From: a virus
DNA length: 34,380 bases
Strand: one strand, 5' to 3'
Virus record (IMG/VR): IMGVR_UViG_3300044797_000051
Span: 1 to 34,380 of that record
In this document: positions 1 to 33,537 of the stretch, piece after piece
How the letters are laid out: each line of letters starts with the position of its first letter
How positions within the stretch are numbered: position 1 is the first letter of the stretch
Notes under the pieces: model-generated
What the model was told of the DNA's origin: nothing
The model's input: only the letters and a program-made list of their open reading frames with translations
Database searches by the model: none
Position numbers and translations under genes: made by a program

Positions 1-132
1 GCCGAACCCCGTTTTACAGGCACGGTGCTAATTGGTTGGCAGTCTAGCACGGTTGGCGCGAGATCGTCGATGCAGCGGCTTCTGATGAGCGAAAGGGGCG
101 GGTTGACAGAGGGTGTATTATCTGAATCGCGC

Positions 133-180
133 GGGGCGGTTGGTTAGTCGGTCCTCAAGAGCGCTCTGCCGACCGTCCCC
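133..180 (+). other. leader hairpin 1
   Basis: GGGG at 133-136 pairs with CCCC at 177-180 and CGGT at 137-140 pairs with ACCG at 172-175, leaving a one-base bulge at 176. The loop contains the palindrome AGAGCGCTCT. It lies upstream of the stronger hairpin at 198-239 and the replication gene. Bases 1-132 hold no gene I can support. A TTGACA box at 103-108 has no convincing -10 at the right distance. Confidence 0.4.
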
Positions 181-197
181 GTTACCACAAAAGCACC

Positions 198-252
198 GAG
201 ATGAGCGGCTGCTAGTCCCCACCAGCAGTCGCTCATCTCTTCGGGTGGGGAC
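198..252 (+). promoter_or_regulatory. 16-bp hairpin with possible pseudoknot over the RBS of the replication gene
   Basis: Bases 198-213 pair with 224-239 over 16 consecutive positions (15 Watson-Crick, one G-U at 208/229). The 10-base loop is 214-223. Loop bases GTCCCCACC (215-223) are exactly complementary to GGTGGGGAC (244-252), giving a possible 9-bp H-type pseudoknot. That G-rich stretch lies 7 bases before the GTG at 260 and is the only purine-rich sequence that could act as its ribosome-binding site. The pairing is seen directly. Regulation of translation is inferred. The same structure could instead act in DNA as an origin-linked element. Confidence 0.6.
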
Positions 253-259
253 CCGCCGA

Positions 260-1114
260 GTGGGAAGAATACGAACGATCAAGCCTGACTTTTTCCGCGA
301 TCCGAAACTGCAAGATATCCAGGCAGAGCACCCTGAGCTCAATCCCATGCTTGTGTTCGCCGGCCTGTGGACTGTGGCCGACAAAAACGGAGTGTTTGAA
401 TGGGAACCACGAATGCTTAAATTAGACATTTTGCCGTTTCTCAGCTACGACCTGGGTGCTTCCCTGGTGCTTCTCGAACGCTTCTCACTTGTTTCCCGGT
501 TTAACTCCGAAGGAAGAGTTTACGGCAAAGTCTTAAAGTTCGCTAAACACCAAAGAATCAGTGGGAAAGAGGCGTTAGCGCCATCTCGGTACCCGCAGGG
601 AAGCACCAGGGAAGTACCCGAGAAGCACCCGGGTGCCCAGGAAGGGGAAAAGGAAAGGGAAAAGGAAAGGGGGGTGGAGCAAATTCCAGAAGCACCCCCC
701 GACCACATTCACCAAAATCAGTTCGCGGCGAAACTCCTCGAAGAAATCCGATTTCCAAAAACCCCGGGCAACATCCGGGCGGTCGCCGCGGCAATCGAGT
801 GTGAAGTTTTGGCTGGGATGAGCAAACCGGCAGCTTACGAATTTGTGTTGGCTGGAACGAAAGACGGCCAAGATCAGGGAATGGAGATCAACACATTTTT
901 TTTCACGGATGCGAAGTATCGAATCGAAAACAGGAGCAACGGACATGGCAGACCTAGCAAAAACACAGAACGGATTATCAGTAACCGAGAAGCGATCATC
1001 GCTGGACTCGGTCTTAGCCCGGATGTTGGACCTCGTGAGTCAGATTTACAAAACCGAGATGCACCCCGGCGAAATTCGAGTGTGGCAACGCTCATTACAA
1101 AACTCAAAACCTGA
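260..1114 (+). CDS. replication-initiator-like protein (N-terminal winged-helix phage replication family)
   Basis: This 284-aa protein starts at GTG 260. From there it reads GRIRTIKPDFF, the usual opening of phage replication proteins of the ARIRTIKPEFW type; the frame is open further upstream but that part crosses the leader hairpins and looks non-coding. Residues about 28-105 contain GLWTVADKNG and a lysine/proline-rich helix pattern expected of the family's DNA-binding winged helix. Residues 125-140 are a charged GEKEREKE linker, and 155-225 a second helical domain ending in FFFTDAKYR. By family it should bind the origin and recruit helicase. The neighbour at 945 resembles a helicase loader, which fits. 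The last 170 bases overlap that gene in another frame. Function is assigned by resemblance only. Confidence 0.7.
   Translation: MGRIRTIKPDFFRDPKLQDIQAEHPELNPMLVFAGLWTVADKNGVFEWEPRMLKLDILPFLSYDLGASLVLLERFSLVSRFNSEGRVYGKVLKFAKHQRISGKEALAPSRYPQGSTREVPEKHPGAQEGEKEREKERGVEQIPEAPPDHIHQNQFAAKLLEEIRFPKTPGNIRAVAAAIECEVLAGMSKPAAYEFVLAGTKDGQDQGMEINTFFFTDAKYRIENRSNGHGRPSKNTERIISNREAIIAGLGLSPDVGPRESDLQNRDAPRRNSSVATLITKLKT
639..674 (+). repeat. 36-base all-purine tract inside the replication gene
   Basis: Every base from 639 to 674 is A or G, with a near-perfect repeat of GGGAAAAGGAAAG. It encodes the charged linker of the replication protein. Origins lie inside initiator genes in several phages, for example lambda O, so this is a candidate unwinding or origin element. 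That role is inference. Confidence 0.45.
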
Positions 1115-1352
1115 GACAGTCGAATGGGCATTTCTCGCTTACTGCAAGCAGGGTAAATTTCCACCGAAGCCAGCAGACATCGGCGAACTAGTCCGAGCGC
1201 GTGAAGAAACTGTGCATTACGACCTCTACCACCCACTCGATGCCACTGAGCGCCAACAACTCGAAGCATCACGTCAGGAATATTTCCAGAGCGATGAATA
1301 CAAACTTTCTGTCGCTCGCATCAACGCCGCGGCCTTGGGGCGGATCAGGTGA
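945..1352 (+). CDS. helicase-loader-like protein (G39P-type)
   Basis: This 135-aa protein starts at ATG 945, preceded by AGGAG. An upstream in-frame ATG at 843 lies deep inside the replication gene and has no ribosome site. The sequence is helical. Residues about 25-85 have the pattern seen in phage helicase loaders/inhibitors: IYKTEMHPGEIRVW, then WAFLAYCKQGKFPPKPADI. The FPPKPADI segment resembles the PxxxDI turn of these proteins. By family, such proteins bind the replicative DnaB-type helicase and help place it at the origin. It starts inside the 3' end of the initiator gene, so the two are probably translationally coupled. The assignment is a family resemblance, not proof. Confidence 0.5.
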   Translation: MADLAKTQNGLSVTEKRSSLDSVLARMLDLVSQIYKTEMHPGEIRVWQRSLQNSKPETVEWAFLAYCKQGKFPPKPADIGELVRAREETVHYDLYHPLDATERQQLEASRQEYFQSDEYKLSVARINAAALGRIR

Positions 1353-1447
1353 GCGCCGAACAAGTTCTCCGCCTCGGATCGGAGACAGCGTGACTTTTCC
1401 TGGCATGTTAATTAGCGGGCGCAAGTACTTGATCGTATGGAGTCTCT

Positions 1448-1654
1448 ATGAAACCTCTACACCCAGGCACGAGACACAGCCATTGGCTGATTCGGCAAGG
1501 CATGAACCGAAGCGCAAAGCGCCGCGTTCCGAGCGCAGTAGACCTCGACCGAATCGCGGACGAGGAAAAGGCGCGTGAAGCCACAAGAGGGCTGGACTCA
1601 GCGAAAAGCCATTCGACTGATCTACCAGTGGAAAGAAGCGGGGCCGTGTGTTGA
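1448..1654 (+). CDS. small basic hypothetical protein
   Basis: A possible 68-aa arginine-rich protein with a weak ribosome site (GGAG at 1440-1443); an internal ATG at 1502 is an alternative start. Its last 80 bases overlap the HNH gene in another frame. The sequence matches no family I know. It fills most of the gap after the helicase-loader-like gene. I am unsure it is translated; the region may only carry the leader and ribosome site of the HNH gene. Confidence 0.3.
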   Translation: MKPLHPGTRHSHWLIRQGMNRSAKRRVPSAVDLDRIADEEKAREATRGLDSAKSHSTDLPVERSGAVC

Positions 1655-33196: not shown

Positions 33197-33537
33197 AAAT
33201 GCCACGCCTGAAGCGCTCATGGATCAAGCGCAAGGCGCGCGTCCGCAGAGTTTCGTGGCGCTCTGGGAAAATCCGGGAAGATGCGGCGGGCATGGCCTTG
33301 CTGCGATGGTGCGTATTCAATCGTAGTCTGTATCGTCACCGCAACCAGTGCGAGAATCTGCTGGAATCGGGACGACGGTGCTTGAATTTTCTTACGTGGG
33401 AAACCTTTCACTTGCACCACGTGATTTCGAGGGGGCGTGGCGGCTCGGACACGGAAGAAAACTGCATGGCTCTGTGTCCGGGCTGCCACTTCGATACGCA
33501 CAATGGGACGTGGAAAGCGAGCAGAGTCAATGACTGA
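33193..33537 (+). CDS. HNH endonuclease-like protein 2
   Basis: 114 aa from GTG 33193, overlapping the previous stop (GTGA) with GGAG nine bases upstream. The N-terminus is very basic (MPRLKRSWIKRKARVRRVSW). The core is LHHVISRGRGGSDTEENCMA followed by CPGCHFDTHNG, the HNH pattern with catalytic His-His and zinc cysteines; a further Cys pair near residues 50-60 completes it. It is not closely like the HNH at 1575. In phages such genes are mobile homing nucleases or act in recombination. Confidence 0.75.
   Translation: MKMPRLKRSWIKRKARVRRVSWRSGKIREDAAGMALLRWCVFNRSLYRHRNQCENLLESGRRCLNFLTWETFHLHHVISRGRGGSDTEENCMALCPGCHFDTHNGTWKASRVND

Follow-up and report, generated by a model that had tools for sequence, protein, structure and literature searches.

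A leader hairpin with a loop complementary to the ribosome-site region of a phage replication initiator gene: a possible translational brake

In this study, we found that the leader of a phage replication initiator gene carries a 16-bp hairpin whose apical loop is complementary to a segment overlapping the ribosome site of the same gene. The complement is real and non-random, and on balance we lean towards the view that this leader RNA acts in cis as a translational brake, limiting the translation of Rep through pairing of the loop with the ribosome site. The hairpin, the complementarity, the start codon, the recurrence in a second lineage and the conservation of pairs between L213 and L240, two leaders of that lineage, were computed directly. 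The stretch analysed here, called the window, is a whole virus record of 34,380 bases (IMGVR_UViG_3300044797_000051, positions 1-34,380), which also encodes a terminase, an SU10-like portal and a major head protein. The hairpin and the Rep gene sit at its left end, with the following features.

129-182, plus strand: second leader hairpin, about 21 pairs with bulges
190-197, plus strand: AAAGCACC, directly 5' of the hairpin; one mismatch to the Rep-gene iteron GAAGCACC
198-213, plus strand: 5' arm of stem S1
214-223, plus strand: apical loop, AGUCCCCACC, of which 215-223 form the 5' strand of helix S2 between loop and ribosome site
224-239, plus strand: 3' arm of stem S1, forming 16 pairs with 198-213, one of them G·U (G208·U229)
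240-243, plus strand: linker UUCG between S1 and S2, 4 nt, of insufficient length for a full pseudoknot
244-252, plus strand: 3' half of S2, GGUGGGGAC, overlapping the SD (best anti-SD match 242-249)
253-257, plus strand: CCGCC; can pair instead with 244-248, giving a local hairpin (-8.0 kcal/mol) by which the SD is covered as well
260-1114, plus strand: Rep, phage replication initiation protein (phrog_16167, E 1.1e-25), GTG start
686-943, plus strand: stretch encoding the C-terminal domain with FFFTDAKYR, common to L213 and L240

The original prediction described a 16-bp hairpin before the Rep gene with nine loop bases exactly complementary to 244-252. All 16 pairs are present, with the amendment that one of them is G·U, and the recomputed complement of 215-223 is exact and of Watson-Crick type over 9 nt. 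Translation from GTG 260, as proposed, is well supported because the Met of the homologues (A2 and A3) aligns there; an N-terminal extension of Rep to GTG 113 was ruled out, since the homologues start at 260. The profile matches of Rep (phrog_16167, E 1.1e-25; phrog_1408, E 1.4e-16) identify it as a phage replication initiator. The proposal that 244-252 is the ribosome-binding sequence was partly borne out: the segment overlaps the SD, but it is not a consensus SD itself, and the strongest match to the anti-SD lies at 242-249 (-7.3 kcal/mol), within the range of this virus's other genes. The window therefore shows one arrangement expected of an SD-sequestering H-type pseudoknot, in that the loop of its hairpin complements a segment on the 3' side that overlaps the SD.

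The RNA fold of window positions 190-275 has a z of -4.71, and 0 of 200 dinucleotide shuffles were as stable. Only one hairpin in all 34,380 bases combines 10 or more pairs with a loop complement of 8 nt no further than 60 nt away, and any such match was contained in 3 of 60 whole-window shuffles. When the hairpin was held fixed and the 60-nt flanks were shuffled, complements of 9 nt or longer arose in 0.00085 of 20,000 trials (P ~8.5e-4). By itself, a stem of 16 bp is only mildly unusual in 34 kb, the longest stems of the whole-window shuffles being 15-17 bp. A longer stem, of 19 pairs with a 15-nt loop, was observed near the right end of the window at 33437-33489. That the structure is due to chance, or is a DNA-level element whose nested palindromes are an operator or a recombination remnant, we regard as the least probable of the explanations considered in this study. 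It is in keeping with the 16-bp stems that arise in some 34-kb shuffles and with GTCCCCACC/GGTGGGGAC, which forms an inverted repeat at the DNA level too, but it does not account for the location at the Rep SD, for the recurrence or for the pairing kept in L213 and L240.

As for the geometry, the pseudoknot drawn in the original prediction (16 bp + 9 bp) is sterically impossible for ideal A-form helices: bridging 16 bp requires about 50 Å, and a linker of 4 nt reaches about 31 Å at 6.2 Å per step. A trimmed form of about 14 + 8 bp, with linkers of 1, 1 and 7 nt, is feasible when two pairs are opened at the stem base together with one pair of the loop helix. Its energy was about -38.0 kcal/mol, calculated with Dirks-Pierce-like pseudoknot penalties, compared with -29.6 kcal/mol for the hairpin alone. 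This form only tied with the nested, non-pseudoknot fold of 198-264 (-39.1 kcal/mol). The two are thus so close in energy that thermodynamics does not decide between them, and the SD is covered in both.

The local hairpin 244-248/253-257, which needs no pseudoknot, occludes the site almost equally well, and in the nested ensemble the SD bases 244-248 are mostly paired. Together with the energies of the local hairpin (-8.0 kcal/mol) and of the nested fold, this agrees with static occlusion, in which the local hairpin covers the SD, the loop complement is incidental and the large hairpin is a stable leader element, serving for example as protection against RNases or as the boundary of a standby site. 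We consider this explanation unlikely. It leaves unexplained both the exact 9-nt loop complement (P ~8.5e-4) and the recurrence in L213 and L240, where the distance to the start is alike and an insertion on both strands has left S2 paired. What stands of the pseudoknot proposed to close the start site is that the loop/ribosome-site complement is unlikely by chance and that its architecture recurs in L213 and L240 with different bases.

In the translational brake that we favour, the hairpin 198-239 would fold first during transcription of the leader. The loop would then pair with the adjacent downstream ribosome-site segment to give an H-type pseudoknot with trimmed helices of about 14 + 8 bp, and the local hairpin 244-248/253-257 would strengthen the closure. 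Rep would be synthesized only once the ribosome or some other factor outcompetes the pairing, and would in this way be kept scarce. We infer that the pairing would form in the cell, that it would repress translation and that this repression may itself be regulated.

No close relatives of the window leader were found with Rep peptide patterns in IMG/VR or by blastn in phages and plasmids, and a degenerate start-pattern search for leader relatives returned one unrelated leader only. As the collections searched held no close leader relative, the leaders of distant Rep homologues were compared. In L003, an 80% terminase relative, the left-end gene differs and the hairpin is absent. A TTGAC-containing sequence is alike at 103-121 of the window and 117-139 of L003, near both left ends, and the genes behind it differ; judged from this likeness, it could be a shared promoter or operator. 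A promoter consensus scan of window positions 1-1500 gave no match on either strand.

Most of the distant Rep homologues have a gene directly upstream, and the leader is mostly non-coding in 35 of 179 distinct loci. A fold z below -2 was found for 12 of these 35 leaders vs 11 of the 144 with coding sequence upstream, and the whole z distributions of the two groups differed as well (Mann-Whitney P 0.007). The count of 200 leaders used below omits loci without a start motif, Reps alike in the first 40 residues, starts less than 70 nt from the locus end, leaders with N, and L001, which is a copy of the window itself. When sets of 396, 398 and 295 genomes were searched with the N-terminal profile, 16, 14 and 3 matches were obtained, respectively, and the C-terminal profile gave 2 matches in 396 genomes. 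Among the 38 loci L256-L293, the start-finding motif accepted few, and 12 new starts were obtained among all loci still unassigned. The newly accepted starts, including those of L256-L293, contained no new example of the hairpin/loop-complement architecture.

Two leaders were found to have the same architecture as the window. L213, detected by reading the leaders, has a 13-bp hairpin with the loop UCUCUCAG and the target CUGAGAGA over the SD; L240, retrieved as a relative of L213, has the loop UUUCUCAAG and the target CUUGAGAGA, again over the SD. The S2 helix ends 7 nt before the start codon in the window and 8 nt before it in both L213 and L240. Under strict thresholds, which were fixed after L213 and L240 were already known (stem of at least 10, complement of 8 or more including no more than one G·U, beginning at -25 to -8), the architecture was present in 3 of 200 distinct Rep leaders, namely the window, L213 and L240. 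The expected number was 0.1 from shuffles and 0.034 from controls (1 in 5914 segments). A stem of at least 11 with a complement of at least 7, thresholds likewise chosen with the examples known, was also found in 3 of the 200 Rep leaders; among the other ORF starts of these loci the count was 0 of 2124. As L240 was reached through L213, its homologue, the evidence amounts to two independent lineages.

The excess fades when the thresholds are relaxed: 3 leaders vs 1.22 expected for a stem of at least 8 with a complement of at least 7, and 14 vs 10.7 for at least 7 and at least 6. A first scan for the architecture had given 2 of 205 leaders vs 0.38 expected. A second, looser scan gave 4 of 191 (window, L199, L213 and L240), where shuffles predicted 0.85 and sequence from elsewhere 1.3; L199 was excluded because its complement sits at -33, off the SD. 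Loop complements located anywhere were not enriched across all leaders (4 of 168 vs 4.9 expected), and two of these four leaders are the window and its own copy L001.

The pairs of S1 in L213 and L240 were matched by structure, counting outward from the loop. Among the 8 comparable pairs, 3 have changed on both sides (GC to UA, AU to GC and GU to CG), 5 are unchanged and none is broken. In S2, one A-U pair has been inserted on both strands and one C-G pair has become U·G. The minimum free energy fold of L240 has three weak extra pairs within the loop. These changes support pairing in the L213/L240 lineage; the comparison concerns their bases and not those of the window itself, as the two are distant from the window and comparable with it by architecture only.

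The three Reps also resemble each other in the C-terminal domain. The motif F[WF]FTD.KYR was at first found only in the window, L213 and L240 among the Reps in hand, the identity of the domain to that of L213 being 63% for L240 and 31% for the window, and BLASTP of L213 vs the window gave E 2e-11. This similarity suggests that the replication modules of the window, L213 and L240 share ancestry. A later search found the domain also in L252, L254 and L255, plus two bacterial genomes (L256 and L257). The architecture was present in 0 of 3 of the out-of-sample carriers L252, L254 and L255, all of which have coding sequence upstream; the C-terminal domain, therefore, does not predict the leader.

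A second class of leaders was observed, with two hairpins of which the second is long and stands immediately before the start; the loop of the first complements bases inside this second one (9 of 200 leaders vs 1.8 expected). These are L012, L018/L201, L040, L056, L070/L220, L076 and L092, several of them with a U-run terminator, and since they include homologous pairs the independent cases are fewer than nine. A looser scan gave 18 of 200 vs 7.9 to 10.0 expected. The matches of the complementary-loop scan, L012, L018, L040, L070 and L092 among them, do not include the window, which thus lacks the arrangement of I-complex leaders, in which the loop of hairpin I pairs inside a distal hairpin containing the SD.

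In L040 (about 2378-2438) and L076 (about 2385-2444), a TTGGCGG loop is complementary to CCGCCAA in a terminator-like hairpin before rep; in L076 the top row of the scan is a different pair, and this one was spotted by reading the leader. We take the UUGGCG/CGCCAA hexamer of both to be that of the I-complex plasmids. L070 and L220 have two consecutive hairpins in the region -121 to -18 from rep, with the complementary loops GTACGAG and CTCGTAC, and a T-run follows the second one, immediately before the SD; the paired hairpins look like a transcription attenuator of rep. In L018, L019 and L201, a terminator-like hairpin at -97 to -15 from rep contains AGCCGGCCAAG, complementary to the upstream hairpin CTTGGCCGGCT. 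Rfam 15 gave nothing above the gathering threshold for the window, the sub-threshold matches in 1-700 having E of at least 2, and no Rfam match was found for the leaders of L040, L076, L070, L220, L018, L092, L012, L056, L213, L024 and L126. A hammerhead-like CTGATGA..GAAA at 83-95 of the window was dismissed by eye, as its stem II has no room.

In plasmids, it is a classical theme that RNAs control how much initiator is synthesized. We tentatively propose, as a possibility that we would not yet call probable, that phages with such initiators control Rep by plasmid-like leader RNAs, and that the two classes form an undescribed repertoire of copy-number or lysis-lysogeny set-points. The window, L213 and L240 would then pair the loop with the ribosome site, and L012, L018/L201, L040, L070/L220, L092 and others would pair the loops of successive hairpins. 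The supply of initiator governs the replication rate of a phage and the capacity of a prophage for plasmid life, and a recurrent leader RNA at phage initiator genes, if true, links phage and plasmid initiator control. In the portion of the literature that is open access in PubMed Central, no paper on such phage-initiator leaders was found.

Several known systems resemble the window leader in part. In the P1 C4 antisense RNA, the loops are complementary to a downstream ribosome-site region of their own transcript, and the window loop is likewise complementary to the downstream ribosome-site region of the same transcript; unlike C4, the window has no Rfam match. In the SAM/SAH, preQ1-I and SAM-II riboswitches of H type, the SD sits in a 3' tail to which the loop of a hairpin pairs. 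The window loop similarly pairs, as predicted, with a 3' SD segment ending just before the start codon, but its class has a stem of 8-16 bp, not a short one, it matches no Rfam family, and it precedes the gene of a phage initiator. The window leader showed no sign of a ligand. The SAM/SAH riboswitch is described as an H-type pseudoknot in PMC7367207.

According to a 2010 review, the leader pseudoknot of T4 gene 32 lies 67 nt upstream and nucleates the binding of gp32 over an unstructured RBS, and it is perhaps the sole viral pseudoknot in translational autoregulation (PMC3014915). The window resembles it in combining a phage replication protein, a leader pseudoknot and translational control (both predicted here). 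It differs in that the window helix overlaps the SD, while the gene 32 operator has its pseudoknot well upstream of an unstructured RBS.

In the leader of ColIb-P9 repZ, PMC8383071 reports, a pseudoknot enables translation and an antisense RNA blocks the pseudoknot. The window shares with the repZ/repA leaders of the I-complex a pseudoknot (here predicted) in the mRNA leader of a replication initiator; unlike in ColIb-P9, its pairing would cover the SD, and L040 and L076 are closer to ColIb-P9. Plasmid-style copy control, in which the hairpin loop would be bound by an antisense (countertranscript) RNA transcribed from the other strand, appears quite improbable for the window. The reverse complement of the loop is the SD segment, complementary-loop pairs exceed expectation in other Rep leaders (9 of 200 vs 1.8), and the antisense RNA of ColIb-P9 blocks a pseudoknot required for repZ translation (PMC8383071). 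However, neither strand of window positions 1-1500 has a consensus promoter, and no Rfam match was obtained. The loop of such an antisense RNA would equal 244-252, so it would compete with the SD for the hairpin loop and would turn Rep on.

The original prediction also suggested autoregulation by Rep or a copy-number switch. This found no support in our analysis. Rep probably has its sites on DNA, at iterons that lie within the rep gene. The iteron-like 8-mers GAAGCACC/GGTGCTTC occur in rep at 455, 466, 600, 622 and 689 and nowhere else in the 34 kb, so that the iterons of the window lie inside the initiator gene; there is a one-mismatch copy at 611 and a purine-rich tract at about 640-675. 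An 8-mer with at least 3 copies at 11- or 22-bp spacing was found in 66 of 195 Rep genes vs 1.6 expected from synonymous shuffles, clustering at about 175-225 and 325-450 nt of the gene. These clusters are probable replication origins inside the gene. According to PMC6022878, ori-lambda lies within gene O. The window agrees with lambda O in having iterons within the initiator gene and differs from it in that iterons of the window type are 11-bp spaced 8-mers in two clusters. We know of no comparable RNA brake for lambda O.

In the AlphaFold2 model of Rep, the N-terminal domain is confident (all 10-residue blocks over 1-110 above 80; whole-model pLDDT 69.9). The PDB matches of the model are weak, none reaching E 0.001, and many of them are winged-helix regulators. 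The iterons in rep, taken with the N-terminal model, indicate that Rep most likely acts on DNA within its own gene.

Self-repression by Rep, through binding to its leader either at the DNA iteron 190-197 or as RNA, is in our judgement very improbable. The octamer AAAGCACC at 190-197 differs from the iteron by one base, exact or near iterons also lie upstream of rep in L024 and L188, and 20 near-matches were counted upstream in 66 loci vs 6.8 expected. Yet 7 of the 20 come from L024, whose palindromic iteron was counted on both strands, leaving 13 without it. Upstream near-matches number none in L213 and one in L240, and are therefore not tied to the hairpin; moreover, the N-terminal model resembles winged-helix DNA-binding proteins weakly, with no match at E 0.001.

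The rep leaders of L024 (-101 to -45) and L188 (-35 and -24) themselves contain copies of the iteron present in the Rep gene, which suggests from position that Rep may bind its own promoter in these two phages. At the end of rep in the window, an ATG open frame at 945-1352 lies in another reading frame, overlaps the gene by about 170 nt and has its own SD, ACAGGAGC.
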